Position numbers and translations under genes: made by a program
From: Myxococcota bacterium
GTDB lineage: Bacteria > Myxococcota_C > UBA6777
Direction of reading: 5' to 3'
DNA length: 64,000 nucleotides
Assembly (NCBI GenBank): GCA_023150835.1
Contig: JAKLKB010000009.1
Location: 1 to 64,000, forward strand
In this document: positions 13,957 to 59,222 of the stretch, piece by piece
How positions within the stretch are numbered: position 1 is the stretch's first letter
How the letters are laid out: each line of letters opens with the position of its first letter
The notes under the pieces: generated by a model
What the model saw: the letters and a program-made list of their open reading frames with translations, nothing else
Databases searched by the model: none
Told to the model about the DNA's origin: nothing

Positions 13957-14387
13957 GACAAAAACATCGTTTGCCCGCCGAAAAACATCACCAGAGCGAT
14001 TTTATTCCTTCTAGCTACGCAAACTTCTGTTGTTGTCTGAGCATGTCCGTTCGCTGCTCGATGTCCCGATACACGGGCGGTTCGCGAACCGCCCCCACGC
14101 AAACATTGCCTTGCATCGAACACGGATCGAACGAAAGAATCGTAGAGAAAGCAAACAGGGGAGGGAGAGAAATTCGGAGGCAGCGAGGTTTTGGTGTTCC
14201 ACGCCGCAGGCTGTTTGCACAAGAGAGCGTCTTTGCCTGCCCCGACTTCCCCCCGTTCACGGGGGGATTGAGGGGGGGCGATCAAAAGAAAAGGCGATCA
14301 AGACCGACTATCCGATGTTTCCACCTTAGCAAGGCGCGTATGGGGCAGCGCCCCACAAAAACCATCGAACTGCGTAAAGTTCGATCC
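13957..14387. other. Repeat-rich intergenic spacer without a gene
   Basis: No supported coding frame. It holds a perfect 20-bp palindrome GGGCGGTTCGCGAACCGCCC (14075-14094), the same as at 41513-41532. It also holds a strong G/C hairpin with CCCCCCG...CGGGGGG arms (14249-14266), a truncated copy of repeat family 2 (14342-14370, reversed), and a terminator-like hairpin (14364-14385). It looks like a landing zone for small palindromic elements. Confidence 0.7.
14356..14385 (-). terminator. Rho-independent-like terminator after the 14388 gene
   Basis: Read on the minus strand just past the stop codon: stem ATCGAACT, loop TTACGC, stem AGTTCGAT, then GG and a TTTTT run. The eight-base stem is perfect. 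The TTACGCAGTTCGAT half is shared with the element at 41465, so the terminator may derive from, or be part of, a dispersed element. Confidence 0.65.
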
Positions 14388-41464: not shown

Positions 41465-41590
41465 CCATAGGACTTACGCAGTTCGATACGAAAAAGGCCC
41501 ATGTTCGGGCGCGGGCGGTTCGCGAACCGCCCCTACAACGCGTTGATTCTTCACGGTTTCCCTTTTCAACTGCGTAAGCCCTACTCCATA
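41465..41590. mobile_element. MITE-like element with TTACGCAGTT inverted ends
   Basis: About 126 bp between the regulator and mevalonate kinase genes. The ends are inverted copies of GGACTTACGCAGTT / GGGCTTACGCAGTT, each next to a CCATA or TCCATA motif. The middle holds the perfect palindrome GGGCGGTTCGCGAACCGCCC followed by CCTAC (GTAG on the other strand). It has no coding capacity. The palindrome recurs at 14075-14094 and the TTACGCAGTTCGAT end at 14364-14385. Confidence 0.7.
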
Positions 41591-50029: not shown

Positions 50030-51967
50030 ATGAAGCACCGAATCCTCGGAACAGCCGGACACATCGACCACGGGAAAAGCAGCCTTGTCCACGCGCTCAC
50101 AGGCCAACGCACCGATCGCCTCCCCGAAGAACAACGCCGTGGTATCACGATCGACTTGGGCTTTGCTTCTCTTCGCGCAGAAGACGTTCACATCGGCATC
50201 GTCGATGTTCCCGGACACGAAGGCTTGATCCGTACCATGGTCGCAGGCGCCAGCGGTATGGACTTTGTGATGCTGGTAATCGCCGCCGACGAAGGGATCA
50301 TGCCCCAAACCCGCGAACACCTCGCCATCTGCGACTTTTTGGGCATCCACCACGGCTTGATCGTCCTCTCCAAAGTCGACCTCGTCGATCCCGCATGGCT
50401 CGAACTTGTCCGCTCCGAGATCCGCAGCGAACTCCAACACTCCCCGCTCCAACACGCCCCCCTCCTCGAAGTCTCCTCCACCACAGGCCAAGGCATCGAA
50501 ACGCTGCGCGAAGCGATCTTTGCCCTCGCTCGCCAACTCCCCGATCTCCCACACCAACAACCTGCAAGACTCCCCATCGACCGCGCTTTTGAACTACGCG
50601 GTCTCGGACCTGTCGTCACAGGCTCACTTCACGGCCAAGATCTGCAAGTCGGCGATACCGTGATCGTCCTCCCCCTCGCCCAACAAGGCCGCATACGCGG
50701 CCTCCATGTTCATCACCAGCCCACCACCAAAGCCCATCACGGACAACGTACCGCCGTGAACCTCCAAGGCATCCCACTCGAAGCCCTCACACGCGGACAG
50801 ATCTTGACCAACGATCTCAGCCTCCAAACCTCCCGCGAGATCGCTGTTTCCTTGCGTGCTCTTCCGCACCTGCCCAAGCCGCTCAAACATCGGGCTCCTT
50901 TGCTCTGCCACCTCGGCACCCAACAGATCGCCTGCCGTCTGTGGCTCCCACAAGCCCCTCACATCGAACCCGCACAACACGCCTTCGCTTACCTTTTGCT
51001 CGATGAACCTGTCCTTGTCCTTCCCCACGATCGCCTGATCTTGCGCGGCTTCCAGCGCTTCCCCAAACACGGCTCCACCGTCGCGGGTGGACAGATCCTC
51101 GATCCCTTCCCTCCCCGCAGAAAACGCCATCGCACCGAGCTCAGCGAACGCCTCCACACTCTTCTTCACGACCCCCTCGAACAACGCGCCGCCATGCTCA
51201 TCCAAGAAGCCCAACTCCACACCCTCTCCACACCCGCTCTCGCCCAACGCCTCGGCCTCTTCGGTCAACCCCTCGATCAACTCCTCCAACGCCTCCTCCA
51301 ACAACACACTCTGCTCCAAATCGATCACGATCCCCCTCATTTTCTCCATACCTCCACACTCCACGACACTTGCGCCCTCGCCATCCAACGCCTCCAACAA
51401 CATCACCAAGCTCACCCCCTCCACGAAGGGATGCCCCGCGAAGCCTTGCGTGAACAACTTCGCATCCCTTCCCCTCGGCTTTTTCAACTACTCCTCCAAA
51501 CTCTCCTTCAACAGGGCAAGATCGCCCCTCCCCAAGACCTTTTGCGCCTCGCCACCCACCGCCTCCAACTCAACGACGACCACGCCGATCTCGAACTCCG
51601 CTTGCTCTCCCTCTACCTCGACGCCACACTCTCACCCCCTCGCGTCCAAGATCTCCCCGCTCTCCTCCAACTCACCCCCCAACAACTCAAACCCATCCTC
51701 ACCTTGCTCCTTCGCAACAACCAACTCGTCCGTGTCTCCGAAGATCTCTACTTCCATCCCCAACCCCTCCACGATCTACAACATCGCCTGATCGCTTTTC
51801 TCCTTCAACACCACACTCTCTCCCCCCAAGACTTCAAAGAACTCACCCAAACCTCCCGTAAGTTTTCCATCCCCCTCGCCGAATACTTCGACAAACAACG
51901 CCTCACCCATCGCCAAGGCGATCAACGCATCCTTCGCGACCCCAAATCCCACAAGGCACAACCATGA
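50030..51967 (+). CDS. selB: Selenocysteine-specific elongation factor SelB
   Basis: GTPase that delivers Sec-tRNA(Sec) to UGA codons followed by a SECIS hairpin. In the 645-aa product the EF-Tu-like G motifs are [10 protein letters not shown] (10-19), DVPGHE, and LSKVDLVD. Domains 2 and 3 follow ([18 protein letters not shown]). The C-terminal half carries winged-helix SelB domains, ending [26 protein letters not shown], the mRNA-hairpin-binding region. ATG 50030 gives the canonical [13 protein letters not shown] start. The stop overlaps rsmI by ATGA. selA, selC and selD are not in the window. Its presence implies that some in-frame UGA codons in this genome encode selenocysteine. Confidence 0.95.
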
Positions 51968-52899
51968 TCACGCTCTCCCTTGCACCCTACCCCGAACTCC
52001 AACCCGCCATCTACCTCGTCCCGACTCCCATCGGCCACCTCGACGATATCACCTTGCGCGCCCTCCGCACCCTCGCCACCGTCGACCGCATCGCCGCCGA
52101 AGATACCCGCAGCGCCCGCCTCTTGCTTAACCACTTTGGCCTCCAAAAACCCCTGTCCTCCATGCACCGCGATAACGAATCCGCCCGCACCTCCGCCTTG
52201 ATCGATGCCTGCAAACAAGGCGAACGCATCGCCTACATCAGCGAAGCCGGTATGCCCGGGATATCCGACCCGGGTTATCTTCTCGTCCAAGACGCCATCC
52301 TCTCCGCTGTCCCTGTGTTCGCACTCCCCGGTCCTTCCGCCTCGATCACCGCACTTGTCGCAAGCGGCCTACCCACCGACCGCTTTCTCTTCCTCGGCTT
52401 TCTTCCCCACGCTTCCGCTCGCCGCAAACAAGCCCTTGCCCCGTTTGCTTATCTTCCCCTTTCCATCGTCCTTTACGTCTCACCACACCGCATCTCCGAT
52501 GAACTCGACGATATCCGCTCCGTCCTTGGCGACCGCCAAGCCTGCATCGCCCGCGAGATATCCAAGATCCACGAAGAATATCTACGTGGCTCCCTCTCCT
52601 CCCTCCAACTCGAACTCGCACAACGCAACCACAAACTCGGCGAGATGGTCCTGATCCTCCAAGGCGTCCCACCACAAATCGCCGCACAAGCCCACGCCAT
52701 CCTCTCAACCACCACCGACACAATGCCCCTCGACGCAGACGCTGCCCTTCAACAACACGCCCACCAACTCCTCCAAAGCAACGCACCCCTCTCCCAAATC
52801 GCCAAACAACTTTCCCACCACTGGCCGCAGATCACACGCCAACAAGCCTACGCCCTCCTCCAAACGCTCCGTCATCCCGACCAAACCAGCAATGTCTAG
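51964..52899 (+). CDS. rsmI: 16S rRNA (cytidine-1402-2'-O)-methyltransferase RsmI
   Basis: SAM-dependent tetrapyrrole-methylase-fold enzyme that 2'-O-methylates C1402, complementary to RsmH at 15260. The 311-aa product shows YLVPTPIGHLDDITLRAL (17-34), AAEDTRSARLLL, SEAGMPGISDPGYLLV, LPGPSASITALVASGLPTDRFLFLGFLP, and REISKIHEEYLRG. All are family signatures. The C-terminal tail after about 245 is a helical extension like the RsmI C-terminal domain. It overlaps selB by 4 bp and ends just before the GTAG-hairpin tandem array. Confidence 0.96.
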   Translation: MITLSLAPYPELQPAIYLVPTPIGHLDDITLRALRTLATVDRIAAEDTRSARLLLNHFGLQKPLSSMHRDNESARTSALIDACKQGERIAYISEAGMPGISDPGYLLVQDAILSAVPVFALPGPSASITALVASGLPTDRFLFLGFLPHASARRKQALAPFAYLPLSIVLYVSPHRISDELDDIRSVLGDRQACIAREISKIHEEYLRGSLSSLQLELAQRNHKLGEMVLILQGVPPQIAAQAHAILSTTTDTMPLDADAALQQHAHQLLQSNAPLSQIAKQLSHHWPQITRQQAYALLQTLRHPDQTSNV

Positions 52900-52900
52900 C

Positions 52901-53153
52901 TGTGATTGCCCTGTTCTTGGGCAGCCACGGGGGGCTGCCCCTACTGTGATCGCCCTGTTCTTGGGCAGCCACGGGGGGCTGCCCCTACTGTGATTGCCCT
53001 GTTCTTGGGCAAATGCGGGGGCTGCCCCTACTGTGATTGCCCTGTTCTTGGGCAAATGCGGGGGCTGCCCCTACTGTGATTGCCCTGTTCTTGGGCAAAT
53101 GCGGGGGCTGCCCCTACATCGTTCGCTCGCAGACCCTGCGGGTTTTGTATAAT
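52901..53153 (-). repeat. Five-copy tandem array of the GTAG-hairpin core plus one right arm
   Basis: Two 44-bp units (52901-52944, 52945-52988) and three 43-bp units (52989-53031, 53032-53074, 53075-53117), each TGTGATTGCCCTGTTCTTGG + GCAG/GCAA... + GGGGGCTGCCCCTAC. On the minus strand each unit begins GTAGGGGC followed by a hairpin. After the fifth unit comes about 36 bp (CGCAGACCCTGCGGGTTTTG, TATAAT) matching the right end of the 115-bp elements. It sits between rsmI and the RAYT gene's 3' end. Confidence 0.92.
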
Positions 53154-53227: not shown

Positions 53228-53305
53228 ATAGCCACCGAGTTCTCGATTTCGGTCGAAAGCCCATCCTAGCCACCGAGTTCTCGATTTCGGTCGAAAGCCC
53301 ATCCA
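53228..53305. repeat. 39-bp direct duplication at the 3' end of the RAYT gene
   Basis: The block TAGCCACCGAGTTCTCGATT through GGTCGAAAGCCCATC occurs twice head to tail (from 53228 and from 53267). The second copy encodes the last residues and stop of the RAYT frame; the first lies just outside it. Confidence 0.88.
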
Positions 53306-54030
53306 ATTGGGTTGTCAAGGATGTATTGCCGAATGCGAGCGAGAGATTTCTCGTCGCGGATGATGTGTTCGTAATAATTGCGTTGCCAGACCCGACCGAA
53401 GAATGGCTGCCAACCCGATTGTTTCACCCCATCGGCGTATCGTTTCGTGGTCAGGGTTTTGAACCGATGAATGACATCCGACAACGATAACGTAGGGGCA
53501 GGCCCCTGTGCCTGCCCGATTTGTGCCTGCCCGATATGCCCCGATATTGTAGGGGCAGGCCCCTGTGCCTGCCCGATTTGTGCCTGCCCGATTTGCCCCT
53601 GTGCCTGCCCGATTTGTGCCTGCCCGATTTGTGCCTGCCCGATTTGTGCCTGCCCGATCTGTGCCTGCCCGATCTGTGCCTGCCCGATTTGTGCCTGCCC
53701 GATTTGTGCCTGTGCCTGCCCGATTTGTGCCTGCCCGATGTGCCCCTGTACCTGCCCGACGAGGACGACGATCCCATGTATATGATTTGGCATGATTACG
53801 AATTCGTCGACGTCCACACCGGGATAAAACATAGGGATTTCGTCCCATACTGTTTGGATCATCCGCCCTGCATCGTTGAGCCGCATCTCCCCCTCTACCA
53901 TATCGCCGAACAGGCAGGCGAGGTCATGGGTGCAGAGAGTCACGAAATACGCCCCAGCACGGGAATAATCGTAACCTTTCAGACGAATGGATCGGCGGTG
54001 GTGTTTTTCTGGATCGTATTTCAATCGCAA
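53266..54030 (-). CDS. REP-associated tyrosine transposase (RAYT, Y1_Tnp HUH) with GQAQI repeat insert
   Basis: IS200/IS605-like single-strand DNA transposase domain of the RAYT class. In the 254-aa product, the N-terminal YDPEKHHRRSIRLKGYDYS and GAYFVTLCTH are followed by the HUH motif in IMPNHIHGIV (His83, His85). The conserved Tyr lies in WQRNYYEHIIRDE (Tyr219/220), with the family ending DNPIGWAFDRN. Between the two halves (about 92-185) lie repeated GQAQI pentapeptides encoded by 15-bp repeats, with two GQAQGPAPT units. On the plus strand those GPAPT units are GTAGGGGCAGG hairpins, the predicted substrate. Start is TTG 54030, 10 bp after the preceding gene's stop; the weak ribosome site leaves it uncertain. 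RAYTs are usually domesticated single-copy genes. Confidence 0.9.
   Translation of the reverse strand: MRLKYDPEKHHRRSIRLKGYDYSRAGAYFVTLCTHDLACLFGDMVEGEMRLNDAGRMIQTVWDEIPMFYPGVDVDEFVIMPNHIHGIVVLVGQVQGHIGQAQIGQAQAQIGQAQIGQAQIGQAQIGQAQIGQAQIGQAQIGQAQGQIGQAQIGQAQGPAPTISGHIGQAQIGQAQGPAPTLSLSDVIHRFKTLTTKRYADGVKQSGWQPFFGRVWQRNYYEHIIRDEKSLARIRQYILDNPIGWAFDRNRELGG
53492..53756 (-). repeat. GTAG-hairpins and 15-bp repeats inside the RAYT gene
   Basis: Two GTAG-led hairpins on the plus strand (53492-53519 and 53549-53577), each GTAGGGGCAGG...CCTGTGCCTGCCCGA, are followed by about ten copies of the 15-bp unit TGCCTGCCCGATTTG. The unit looks like a repeatedly copied right half of the hairpin. In the minus-strand frame it reads GQAQI. 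Confidence 0.92.
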
Positions 54031-54040
54031 CTCGTCGTCT

Positions 54041-54493
54041 TCAAGAAGACGCTTTCTTTTTACGCAGCGTCTGCACAGCTTTTTTTCGAGGCTGTGCTGT
54101 AAAGTCCAGCAGCGCGCTGATGAGTTCTGAAACGGGTTCGTTTTCTTCTGCCGCCAACTTGGCCTTCGCTGCGCGAAGTAGCTTATCCGCCCCCTTTTTC
54201 ACCTCAGACATTCGCGCCTGCCGGCTCTCTTGCACTTGTTCCAACTTTTCCGCCAACCACTCTTCCGCCTCTTTGAATCCTTCGGCCTCTTCCACCAGCG
54301 CCAGCAGCTTGGCTGCGTCGATCCCTGAAACGGACAAAATCGACGGATCATCCCGCAAACGCTCGAACATGGGTCGCACAACCGCTGCATACCCCTCCCG
54401 AACTTTCGCAAAATCTTTCTTCTCTTCTGCGCTGTAATTCCGAATCCCCATATCCTTCAGATCGATCATCGTCTTGGTCTTCTTTAGTGACAC
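54041..54493 (-). CDS. Small coiled-coil protein of unknown function
   Basis: 150 aa, charged and helical. It opens VSLKKTKTMIDLKDMG; the middle holds AAKLLALVEEAEGFKEAEEWLAEKLEQVQ and the end is Lys-rich (RKKAVQTLRKKKASS). GTG 54493 is chosen because AAGGAGG lies 8 nt upstream; longer frames start at TTG without a site. No membrane segment or known motif. It is followed 10 bp later by the RAYT gene and preceded by the 41-bp tandem array. It could be coexpressed with the transposase, but a functional link is unproven. Confidence 0.62.
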   Translation of the reverse strand: MSLKKTKTMIDLKDMGIRNYSAEEKKDFAKVREGYAAVVRPMFERLRDDPSILSVSGIDAAKLLALVEEAEGFKEAEEWLAEKLEQVQESRQARMSEVKKGADKLLRAAKAKLAAEENEPVSELISALLDFTAQPRKKAVQTLRKKKASS

Positions 54494-54606
54494 CAAACAG
54501 CCCTCCTTATGCAACGTGATTTCATCCACCACGGCCACCAAAGCACAAACGAACCCCGCGATCAAGCATCGATCAAAATAACCACTCTCCCCCAAAGCAA
54601 TATTTG

Positions 54607-54841
54607 ATCTCTACGAAGCTCTTTTTCTTTCTGTAGAGAGCAAAATCATCTCTACGAAGCTCTTTTTCTTTCTACAGAAAGCAAAACCATCTCTACGAAG
54701 CTCTTTTTCTTTCTACAGAAAGCAAAACCATCTCTACGAAGCTCTTTTTCTTTCTGTAGAGAGCAAAATCATCTCTACGAAGCTCTTTTCCTTTCTGTAG
54801 AGAGCAAAACCATCTCTGCGGAGCTCTTTTTCTTTCTACAG
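54607..54841. repeat. 41-bp tandem array (five full copies and a partial)
   Basis: Units start at 54607, 54648, 54689, 54730 and 54771, with a partial at 54812 running into the 3' end of the GGDEF gene. The consensus starts ATCTCTACGAAGCTCTTTTT. Two variants alternate: CTGTAGAGAGC, where CTCTAC and GTAGAG can pair, and CTACAGAAAGC, where CTTTCT and AGAAAG form a perfect palindrome. All the spacer is filled by this array; no gene is present. Confidence 0.95.
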
Positions 54842-56233
54842 CTCTTTCGACAAAGAGGGATTGGATGGGGTGAACACGAAGCGATCTCGGCCTTGTTGTT
54901 TGGCTTGATAGAGGGCGATATCGGCTTCTTTGAGGAGCGCCTGAAGATCGAGCGTTACGCTTTCGGGTGGGCTGATGGCTTCTGCAACGCCGATGCTACA
55001 GGTGACAGCGAGCGGGCCAGATTGTGTTTGAAAGGGAGAGATGGCGATGCTTTTTCGCAAGCGCTCTGCAACGATCTGTGCCTGTTGTGCGGTGACACCG
55101 ATCAGCAGAAGGACGAATTCTTCTCCGCCATAGCGCCCGAGGATATCCGAGTCGCGGATTGCGCGTCGGAACCTTTTTGAGGCTTCTCGGAGCACTTCAT
55201 CGCCGACGGGGTGGCCGTGTGTATCGTTGATCTTCTTAAAGTGATCGAGGTCCAGCATCATGGCATAAAACGGGCGCTCGTAAGGAAGAGGCTTGTGACA
55301 TTGCTCGCGTGCTTTGGCGAAGAATTGGCGGCGATTGTAGAGTCCTGTCAACTCATCGACGAGCGCAAGCCGTTTGAAGGCGTGAAAGCGCTCTGCTCCG
55401 TTCAAAACATCGGCGGCCTCGTGCGCAACAGAAAGTCCCCATTCCAAGCGGCTATTGTCATAAGCGGATGCGTTCGGAAAATACAGTAAAAAAAGCGCCA
55501 TACATCGGTTTTGTTGAAGGATCGGCAAGGCATACAAACAACTCGTTTTCTGGGATGCTTTGGCATCCTCGATCTCTTGAAAGCCGTCTGGCTTTTGAAA
55601 CACCATCCCACCCGAACAAAGCGAACCTGCCCGCAATAAAAAAAGCTCCTCTTCTTGGGAGATATCTGCGCTGAGCAACATCAGTTCTGTATCGCTTTCG
55701 TATCCGACGCTGTAGGTCAACCCTTCCTCTGGATCGAAAAAAAACGCATGGGAGGCGTTGCAACCAAGCGCCGCGTGCAATTCTTTCAAAAAAAACAAAA
55801 ACACTTCCTCGGGTTCGAGCGAGCTTTGGGCATCATTCCACGCATGAAGCCGCTGCAAAAACAAGGAGTGCGCTTCTTTTCGTGCGAGCGACTCTGCCAG
55901 CCGTCCGAGCAGACGAAGAGCGCATTGGCTTGCCTCATGGATCTCAAACACCGTTTTGGCGGCTGTGTGGCTTGATGTCGGCGCTGTTTTAGCGGCTGTG
56001 TGGCTTGATGTCGGCGCTGTTTTGGCGGCTTGGCTCGGCGAAAACGCTGTTGTTGGTTGAGTTTGTTGCGAATTTTGGGAGGCATCGCAAAGCGTGGCGC
56101 TGTGTTGAGCGATCTCTTCGAGGTAGTCGCGTAATTGGGCGCAAAGCAAAGAGCCTTCGCCGATCGTTTCGGAGAGGTGGGGGAGTGCGGAAAAGAAGCG
56201 GGGGTCAAAGAGCCGATTGTGTTCACCTTGCAT
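54836..56233 (-). CDS. GAF-GGDEF diguanylate cyclase
   Basis: Makes the second messenger c-di-GMP from two GTP. In the 465-aa product, residues about 60-95 contain a duplicated AAKTAPTSSHT unit. Residues about 135-285 look like a GAF sensor domain, and 285-455 form the GGDEF domain with the active GGEEF at 369-373 and DLDHFKKINDTHGHPVGDEVL. The product-inhibition I-site RDSD (360-363) is intact, so feedback control is likely. ATG 56233 has AAGGAG 8 nt upstream and overlaps the kinase gene by 11 bp. The last gene of a FIST-kinase-cyclase operon; the cyclase has no receiver domain, so its link to the kinase must be indirect or by complex formation. Confidence 0.93.
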   Translation of the reverse strand: MQGEHNRLFDPRFFSALPHLSETIGEGSLLCAQLRDYLEEIAQHSATLCDASQNSQQTQPTTAFSPSQAAKTAPTSSHTAAKTAPTSSHTAAKTVFEIHEASQCALRLLGRLAESLARKEAHSLFLQRLHAWNDAQSSLEPEEVFLFFLKELHAALGCNASHAFFFDPEEGLTYSVGYESDTELMLLSADISQEEELFLLRAGSLCSGGMVFQKPDGFQEIEDAKASQKTSCLYALPILQQNRCMALFLLYFPNASAYDNSRLEWGLSVAHEAADVLNGAERFHAFKRLALVDELTGLYNRRQFFAKAREQCHKPLPYERPFYAMMLDLDHFKKINDTHGHPVGDEVLREASKRFRRAIRDSDILGRYGGEEFVLLLIGVTAQQAQIVAERLRKSIAISPFQTQSGPLAVTCSIGVAEAISPPESVTLDLQALLKEADIALYQAKQQGRDRFVFTPSNPSLSKEL

Positions 56234-57905
56234 GGTGGTGGACTCCTTCGACCGTTTCAGCAACGGGGTGCTTGTTGGCAAAGCGGGGACAATCGATCAC
56301 GATGCGCGTCCCTTGGGCTGGTGTACTTTGGATGGAGATCTGCCCGCCTTGGTGCAACACAGCTTTTTGGACGGCAGACATCCCGATCCCACGCCCAGAG
56401 ATCTCTGTGGCTTCTTCGGCGGATGAAAGCCCATCTTCAAAGATCAAGGCCAGTTTTTGTTCATTGGACATTTTTGCAAGCTGCTCTTCGCGGAGGATCC
56501 CTTGAGCCAAAGCCCGCCGGCAAAGCCGCTCGATGGGGATACCGCCTCCGTCATCTTCGACCACCACGCGGTAGCGCTCGCCTGCATAAGACAAAGACAA
56601 CAGCACTCGGCCTTGCTGCGACTTCGTCCCTCTGCTTTCGGGAAACTCGATTCCGTGATCCACAGCATTTCGTAGTAAGTGCGGCAACACAAGAAATAGC
56701 GGTTGAACGGTTTCAGCATCCACCAAGAGTTCTTCGCCTTCGAGTACAAATTCGATGCGTTTGCCGAGCCTGAGAGAGAGTTTTTCAACGAACGATTGGA
56801 GGGGACCGAGTAATTCACGCGCTGGGCGTTGGACCCATTCTTCTGCGAGGTGTTTGAGGGCCTGAATGCGTGTGCCTGAGGAACGTCGGTCATCGTAAAG
56901 CGTCATCCGCATCGCTTGCATCTGTTGTTTTGAGATTTCAAACGGAGGGTCGAACTCATCGTAGTGAAGCCCGATCACACAAGCATTCTCCTCGATAAAC
57001 TCGCGCAACGACGACTCCACTCGCAAGATCTCTTGGTTTGTGATCTCTTTGGCTTCTTCGGCTGTATGCACACAAGCCACGACCTCTGCGATCCCATAAG
57101 ATGCGGCGTTTCCTTTGATCGTGTGGAGCGCCCTGCGCCGAAAGGCTTGTGTTGTCGTCGGCGACAACATCTGCGCGATCTGCTCCTTTGCGTCGGTTAA
57201 AAATTGCTCGAAGGCGTATTTTTGCCGAAGGATCGTCAACAGGGCTTGGTTACGCAGATGCCCGCGCTGGGCTTCTTCGAGTGCTGTAATATCGCTGATG
57301 GTCATCAACACGCCGTCGACTTCACCTGACACAGCGCGCAATACACGTCCTTCAATGCGCAGTATCCGCCCTCTGACTTCAAAGCGGGAGGGCAGTTGTG
57401 CCAAAGACACTTCTTCGGGGAGGATATCTTCGAACACTTGATCCATCCCGAGTAAAAAATCCGAAAACGACACGCTGTCCTCGATGCCAAGCAAAGCCCC
57501 CAAAGACTCACCCGCAGCCACGCAGCGCCCAAACAGTTCTGCACAAGACCGCGTGAAACCTTCCTTGAGACGGAGTTCTTGATCGCAGATCAAAAACCCA
57601 AACGTCACATGATCGAGGATGGCTTGGAGGGCTTGGGTGCGACGGAGAACCTCGCATTCGAGTTGCTCGTTGTAGCGTTGCAGCTCTGCCGAACGAATTT
57701 CCATCCATACGCGCCGTTGCAGGCTCTGTTCTTCGCGCTTTCTTGCGCGATCGAGTTGACGATACAGCACGCTCTCGGAGCCTTTGTTGTACATCGACTT
57801 GACTTTTTTCTTGAGCACGTCGACGGTTTTTTCGGCAGCCATCGCACGCCGCTTCCAATCGGTACTTTGTTCGGGCAGCGCCGTATGTTGTGGGTTGGTG
57901 CTCAT
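56223..57905 (-). CDS. PAS-Hpt-CheA-like histidine kinase
   Basis: A 560-aa soluble kinase. An N-terminal coiled coil (about 20-95) leads to a PAS-like domain (about 95-210, ILDHVTFGFLICDQELRLKEGF). A His-phosphotransfer domain follows with the phosphoacceptor His261 in LHTIKGNAASYG. Next is a CheA-type catalytic ATPase: N box HLLRNAVDHGIEFPESR (about 409-425), VVEDDGGGIP, and GRGIGMSAVQKAV. The CheA P2 and CheW-like domains are absent, and no receiver is attached. ATG 57905 has AGGAGG 7 nt upstream and overlaps the FIST gene stop (ATGA), so translation is coupled to the sensor. The CheY at 60059 is a plausible phosphate acceptor. Confidence 0.9.
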   Translation of the reverse strand: MSTNPQHTALPEQSTDWKRRAMAAEKTVDVLKKKVKSMYNKGSESVLYRQLDRARKREEQSLQRRVWMEIRSAELQRYNEQLECEVLRRTQALQAILDHVTFGFLICDQELRLKEGFTRSCAELFGRCVAAGESLGALLGIEDSVSFSDFLLGMDQVFEDILPEEVSLAQLPSRFEVRGRILRIEGRVLRAVSGEVDGVLMTISDITALEEAQRGHLRNQALLTILRQKYAFEQFLTDAKEQIAQMLSPTTTQAFRRRALHTIKGNAASYGIAEVVACVHTAEEAKEITNQEILRVESSLREFIEENACVIGLHYDEFDPPFEISKQQMQAMRMTLYDDRRSSGTRIQALKHLAEEWVQRPARELLGPLQSFVEKLSLRLGKRIEFVLEGEELLVDAETVQPLFLVLPHLLRNAVDHGIEFPESRGTKSQQGRVLLSLSYAGERYRVVVEDDGGGIPIERLCRRALAQGILREEQLAKMSNEQKLALIFEDGLSSAEEATEISGRGIGMSAVQKAVLHQGGQISIQSTPAQGTRIVIDCPRFANKHPVAETVEGVHHHAR

Positions 57906-59109: not shown

Positions 59110-59222
59110 GTACGATATCCGAGTGATGTGTAGAGGAGAGTATGTAGATGCCCTGTGATTGGGCAGACACAGGGGTCTGCCCCTACATCCTTACGATCAC
59201 ACAACGGGCAGATCTCGTATTA
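59110..59222 (+). repeat. GTAG-hairpin dispersed element, copy C
   Basis: About 113 bp. Left end TACGATATCCGAGTGATGTG, hairpin GGGCAGacacaggggtCTGCCC followed by CTAC, right end GGGCAGATCTCGTATTA. Together with the adjacent repeat at 59231-59356 it fills the roughly 340-bp gap between the FIST and CheX-like genes; no ORF is supported there. Confidence 0.87.

Follow-up and report, generated by a model that had tools for sequence, protein, structure and literature searches.

The window, by which we mean the whole 64,000-nucleotide stretch of DNA analysed here, contains the gene of a RAYT (TnpA-REP) transposase whose reading frame holds REP hairpins between its two catalytic motifs. This raises the question of how such hairpins came to lie in the gene, whether they are peculiar to it, and what they say about the substrate of the enzyme. 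The features on which the analysis is based are collected in Table 1.

Table 1. Features of the RAYT locus in the window.
Feature	Position	Strand	Basis
RAYT / TnpA-REP gene (HUH Y1 transposase), 254 aa with linker	53266..54030	-	Y1_Tnp, NF047646, model match to 4ER8
HUH motif, H-I-H of MPNHIHG	53776..53784	-	invariant columns of the homologue alignment; codons read directly
Repeat linker, 264 bp / 88 aa, between the HUH strand and helix alphaC	53491..53754	-	tandem-repeat analysis; model pLDDT
Full REP hairpin 1, GTAGGGGCAGGCCCCTGTGCCTGCCC	53492..53517	+ (antisense to RAYT gene)	
Full REP hairpin 2, GTAGGGGCAGGCCCCTGTGCCTGCCC, identical to hairpin 1	53549..53574	+ (antisense to RAYT gene)	
Tandem array of 15-bp REP 3′-half units, TGTGCCTGCCCGATT	53564..53739	+	repeat analysis
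Catalytic tyrosine codon, Y236 in RQYILDNP	53323..53325	-	invariant in alignment; aligned with Tyr of DYIYINP in 4ER8
Array flanking the RAYT gene on its 3′ side, five 43–44 bp units (hairpin + spacer)	52900..53117	-	repeat analysis, pattern search
Same-class REP with covarying stem pair, GTAGGGGCAGACCCCTGTGTCTGCCC	59161..59186	-	variant also elsewhere in genome

The RAYT Gene and Its Enzyme Core

An earlier note on this DNA had read the gene as a RAYT, and this assignment holds: the HUH motif (histidine codons 53782–53784 and 53776–53778) and the catalytic tyrosine are kept, NF047646 (REP_Tyr_transpos) is the best family match, and the predicted fold corresponds to that of 4ER8, a RAYT–REP complex. 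The Y1_Tnp profile gave 28.9 bits (cutoff 23). The NF047646 score was 58 bits, or 69 bits with the linker removed, in both cases below the cutoff of 80, which is a convenience threshold and marks no defining trait of RAYTs. The ORF starts with TTG, and an alternative in-frame TTG at 54024 would give MKYDPEKHH, as homologues have. All 22 columns that are invariant among homologues, HUH and Tyr included, are retained, and the frame is free of stop codons. An HUH Y1 domain with both motifs intact, together with REPs that flank the gene and are dispersed genome-wide, places the protein in the RAYT / TnpA-REP class (class 2 of Quentin et al.).

In an AlphaFold model (35 sequences), most of the core had pLDDT above 90, and residues 114–133 and 137–169 fell below 50; based on this prediction, the linker most likely forms an excursion without ordered structure. 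The model matched IS608 TnpA, ISDra2 TnpA and 4ER8, the last with Z 12.2 over 129 residues (3.1 Å, 22% identity). PDB sequence matches of the full protein to 7wkk, which is unrelated, and to a designed protein arose via the low-complexity linker and were rejected.

The organism's own genome (7.56 Mb) was searched by pattern and by protein. The protein search found no second full-length RAYT in this genome, which is 93% complete, and an IS200-like match on contig 42, a fragment beside a TnpB-like frame, was rejected as a candidate. No relative was found in a search of viral contigs. The RAYT gene ends within a perfect 38-bp tandem duplication (53229–53304), by which its last 13 codons are repeated downstream.

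The Repeat Linker inside the Gene

Two full hairpins and about ten 15-bp half repeats had been described between the HUH and Tyr motifs, and both were found, the half repeats numbering exactly 11. The unit TGTGCCTGCCCGAT occurs 13 times in the linker, twice as the 3′ arm of a hairpin and 11 times as an extra half unit, one of which stands apart at 53522. Folded as ssDNA, each hairpin has an 8-bp stem with an energy of -10 kcal/mol and a z score of about -3.7. Tandem Repeats Finder (TRF) gave the array a period of 15 and a score of 230. A pattern search allowing up to three mismatches found no tandem of half units elsewhere in the organism's genome.

The linker is translated as GQAQGPAPT and IGQAQ units, as had been noted earlier. 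The observation that the frame stays open through the repeats also stands, the ORF being intact, but it carries little weight: the repeat is poor in stops, its length of 15 is a multiple of three, and all three coding-strand frames are open through the array, so that an open frame alone is no evidence of selection. What is informative instead is that the length of the insert is divisible by three and that both halves of the enzyme are intact. The hairpins lie within the transcribed region with their GTAG foot on the template strand, and the mRNA therefore carries only the complement and has no GUAG foot.

REPs in the Window and in the Genome

Searching the 7.56-Mb genome for GTAGGGGCNNNCCCCNGTGNNNGCCC with one mismatch allowed gave 243 forward and 257 reverse matches, and the reversed control pattern gave none. 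The variable stem triplets of the genomic REPs covary, with AGC/GCT, AGA/TCT, AAC/GTT and AGG/CCT among the examples. Based on these roughly 500 copies against none in the control, and on the covarying triplets, the linker REPs are members of the REP class of this genome. These copies, and the closest enzyme relatives, which share the class, support this part of the reading in the earlier note, where the hairpins were taken for the predicted substrate of the enzyme.

The exact linker hairpin (loop CCCCTGTG, stem CAGG/CCTG) is confined to the linker within this genome; the other 38 near copies have the same stem and the loop CCCCCGTG, and the commonest genomic variant listed has the stem CAGCC/GGCTG. 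The 38 GTAGGGGCAGGCCCCCGTGCCTGCCC copies seem to be embedded in a longer repeat flanked by GGAAATCACACGGTGTTT...TCTGTTGCGTCG, and several lie at contig ends. Shared flanks were present in all eight copies inspected (L001–L008), which points to a larger dispersed element.

The array flanking the RAYT gene lies between it and the gene at 51964–52899, and its units carry the GTAGGGGCAGCC hairpin. The REP GTAGGGGCAGCCCCCCGTGGCTGCCC is intact in two of the five units (52919–52944 and 52963–52988), and the right arm is degenerate in the other three.

A second REP type, GTAGGGGCGGTTCGCGAACCGCCC, occurs in the window at 41513–41536 and 14075–14098, the latter copy being GTGG-led. No RAYT matching this type was found in the organism's own genome; the type is carried by the clade into which the same-genus RAYT L014 falls. 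A direct repeat of about 41 bp (ATCTCTACGAAGCTCTTTTTCTTTCTGTAGAGAGCAAAATC), unrelated to the GTAG REPs, was found at 54600–54840, between the ORF 54041–54595 and a diguanylate-cyclase-like ORF (54836–56281).

Linker REPs among Homologues

When 84,980 species genomes were scanned, there were at least 561 homologues, and the best 80 of these, from many phyla, were used. Both motifs could be parsed in 69 of these 80, and the linker survey rests on these 69. A GT[AG]G hairpin was present in the linker of 57 of the 69, compared with 4.7% of codon-shuffled linkers. Linker REPs are thus the rule in the surveyed homologues of this RAYT subclass. Some homologues are without a linker REP, and L014, from the same genus, has no clear one. 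Tandem expansions of half REPs also occur in L026, L032, L038, L056, L057, L066 and others, and, given the linker hairpins in most homologues and the recurrence of such arrays, the window holds an extreme example of an architecture that is common. The period was divisible by three in 15 of the 16 linkers with arrays, the window counted; a contrast between coding and intergenic array periods was dropped, since about half of the intergenic spacings are also multiples of three.

The earlier note had proposed comparing homologue linkers with the REPs of their own genomes, and the two agree in general form. An exact match of at least 15 bp between the linker and its own flanks was found in 15 of 60 cases, against 3% of comparisons with the flanks of other genomes. 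After linker REPs were assigned by a stem-based classifier, two main classes emerged: an asymmetric one whose loop ends in GTG (17 rows, the window included) and a palindromic double-foot one (32 rows). The asymmetric pattern was present genome-wide in 13 of the 15 genomes with an asymmetric-class RAYT and in 9 of 33 others (p = 1.6e-4), or, when at least three copies were demanded, in 10 of 15 and 7 of 33 genomes (p = 0.004). The GGTTCGCGAACC / GTAGGGGCGGTTCGCGAACCGCCCCTAC REP or a near variant, usually in low copy number, occurred in all five genomes with a linker copy and in 6 of 39 others. The double-foot pattern, present in 44 of 48 genomes, is too widespread to discriminate.

Many asymmetric REPs are also found in some double-foot RAYT genomes, where they perhaps derive from further RAYTs. 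Genome G040, to which L090 belongs, has 200 asymmetric REPs although the linker REP of L090 is double-foot, which suggests a second RAYT or one that was lost. In G011, the genome of L037, asymmetric REPs occur mostly as inverted pairs about 30–50 bp apart, in a REPIN-like arrangement, and the partner stems differ.

REP Class and Covariation with Helix alphaC

In a tree of the homologues found here, computed from the core protein with the linker left out, the REP class switches a single time over the 49 classified rows. With unclassified rows counted, the asymmetric group alone requires 2 changes, compared with 15.3 in shuffles. The stretch from FK of alphaC to VWQRN measures 24 aa in all 17 asymmetric sequences and 17–19 aa in all 32 double-foot ones.

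Partial Mantel tests on about 40 double-foot and similar RAYTs compared the half-stem distance of the REPs with segments of the protein, after overall protein distance had been removed by regression. The covariation peaked at the start of alphaC, the helix between the HUH strand and WQRN, where the partial r of 0.31 was reached in none of 300 permutations (95% limit of the permuted maximum, 0.205). A second covarying segment, with partial r of 0.20–0.23, is the end of the upstream helix. The best alphaC columns (93, 97 and 100/101) have the spacing of one helix face, and so do those of the upstream helix (61, 65 and 68/69). In the E. coli TnpA-REP, alpha3, the counterpart of alphaC, binds the REP, and its K82 contacts the bulge (PMC8266576). 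The covariation suggests that, within one class, the sequence of the linker REP tracks the DNA-binding helix. It is not proof, because tree structure and the linkage between alphaC and the linker are incompletely removed by the test, and part of the signal could be linkage, since alphaC adjoins the linker in the gene.

Relation to Known Systems

In-frame REPs between HuH and Y were already described by Quentin et al. for TnpA-REP subclass 2.4, to which these authors assign the RAYT group 4 sequences of Bertels et al. and in which they judge the insertion loop peripheral (PMC6006769). Based on motifs and anatomy, the window protein fits subclass 2.4 / RAYT group 4. Its NHIH and WQRNYYEH agree with the subclass motifs NH[IFV]H and WQ, and it shares the GTAG REPs, the variable insertion between beta3 and alphaC, and the in-frame REPs between HuH and Y. 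It differs in its tyrosine motif, which is YILDNP where the subclass consensus is YIxNNP (the site varies among close homologues), in its asymmetric single-foot antisense REPs and in an unusually large half-REP expansion of 11 extra units. The locus had been singled out as the strongest candidate for an unusual system, a reading that is not supported in view of the published subclass and of the hairpins in most homologue linkers. The in-frame insertion itself is already known; what is added here is evidence that REPs are the rule in these linkers and follow the helix that binds DNA.

The E. coli TnpA-REP of 4ER8 (subclass 2.2, RAYT group 2) has the same fold, catalytic Tyr and HUH, and its residues in contact with GTAG, Q95 and R104, correspond in the alignment to the invariant Q216 and R225 of the window RAYT. 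However, it is without a linker insert, its REPs are bulged, and it has a C-terminal extension that the window RAYT lacks. The HUH Y1 fold is likewise shared with the IS200/IS605 TnpA proteins of IS608 and ISDra2, but the window protein scores far below the NF033573 cutoff and has GTAG REPs in place of subterminal IS hairpins. REPs also occur inside the open frames of unrelated genes (PMC3733652), whereas those described here lie in the gene of the transposase itself and at one recurrent site.

Possible Origin and Role of the Linker REPs

Based on the above results, we consider it probable that the gene encodes a subclass-2.4 TnpA-REP with cognate-class REPs in a disordered linker, inherited in step with recognition, and that the 3′ half of the REP has been amplified. 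This reading draws on the observed anatomy, REP class match, predicted disorder, recurrence, tree and covariation with the enzyme. An ancestor would have captured a GTAG REP in a permissive loop able to take any insert whose length is divisible by three. The captured REP would then have been inherited with the gene and kept matched to the REP type that the enzyme recognises. In the window gene its 3′ half would have multiplied into an array of 15-bp (5-codon) units, for which strand slippage during replication of a tract prone to hairpins is the most likely cause. The core enzyme has most likely kept its activity, and the fold is probably little affected by the linker. The published precedent for the subclass and the finding of a single full-length RAYT in the genome also speak for this explanation. 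The predicted substrates are the GTAGGGGCAGG and GTAGGGGCAGCC hairpins, over other REP classes. Against this explanation counts the fact that the exact linker hairpin is limited to the linker and that the commonest genomic variant differs. The asymmetric REPs in some double-foot RAYT genomes, the NF047646 score below the cutoff even after removal of the linker, the lack of a clear linker REP in L014 and the position of alphaC beside the linker likewise count against it.

A plausible competitor, to which we give somewhat less than even chances, is pure tolerance: REPs insert wherever they do no harm, the loop is permissive, and the REP is inherited with the gene, so that covariation reflects ancestry and linkage and not recognition. 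The occurrence of REPs inside many unrelated genes (PMC3733652), the peripheral position that Quentin et al. ascribe to the loop (PMC6006769) and the predicted disorder of the linker all agree with it. It accounts less well for a hairpin at one site in 57 of 69 homologues, for the perfect tie between REP class and core segment length, and for covariation that is concentrated on one face of alphaC and at the end of the upstream helix but disappears in the variable stretch that directly follows alphaC, though this lies nearly as close to the linker. The near-universal presence of the linker REP, its co-evolution with the enzyme and the REPtron-like flanking REPs would also suit an internal REP that is functional for the gene, serving as master copy or label when the enzyme copies or moves, as ssDNA, either its REP family or the gene itself. 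We regard this as unlikely, considering that the exact linker hairpin differs from the prevalent genomic variant and that some homologues have no linker REP.

Decay of the gene, in which repeats grow as the RAYT becomes a pseudogene, would explain the large expansion, the TTG start and an NF047646 score below the cutoff; however, the absence of stop codons, the 22 intact invariant columns with HUH and Tyr among them, an insert length divisible by three and a core with pLDDT mostly above 90 make it highly improbable. Least probable of all is the autoregulation suggested in the earlier note, by which the enzyme would bind its own gene or mRNA via the internal hairpins. These do lie inside the transcribed region, but the strand with their GTAG foot is the template, so that the mRNA offers only its complement, and the E. 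coli TnpA-REP binds and acts on the ssDNA REP and not on the complement (PMC8266576); autoregulation through mRNA is thus unlikely.

Implications for the RAYT Family

As to cognate-class REPs inherited in step with recognition, the substrate of each enzyme may be recorded in its own gene, given that REPs are the rule in the linkers and follow the helix that binds DNA. We hold it an even bet that most genes of the subclass are self-labelled enzyme–substrate pairs, in which the linker REP would be the cognate target and would covary with the alphaC face and the end of the preceding helix. The linker REP offers a likely cognate substrate for each gene, in a subclass without biochemistry in the literature cited here, and it accounts for the odd repeat peptides of such transposases (GQAQ, VGATRRVAPT, GRGTARRAPT). 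Together with the alphaC covariation, it makes the question of how RAYTs distinguish REPs directly testable. If the pairs are indeed self-labelled, with the linker REP as the cognate target covarying with a few residues, a REP recognition code would be readable from genome data alone and would be open to residue swaps.
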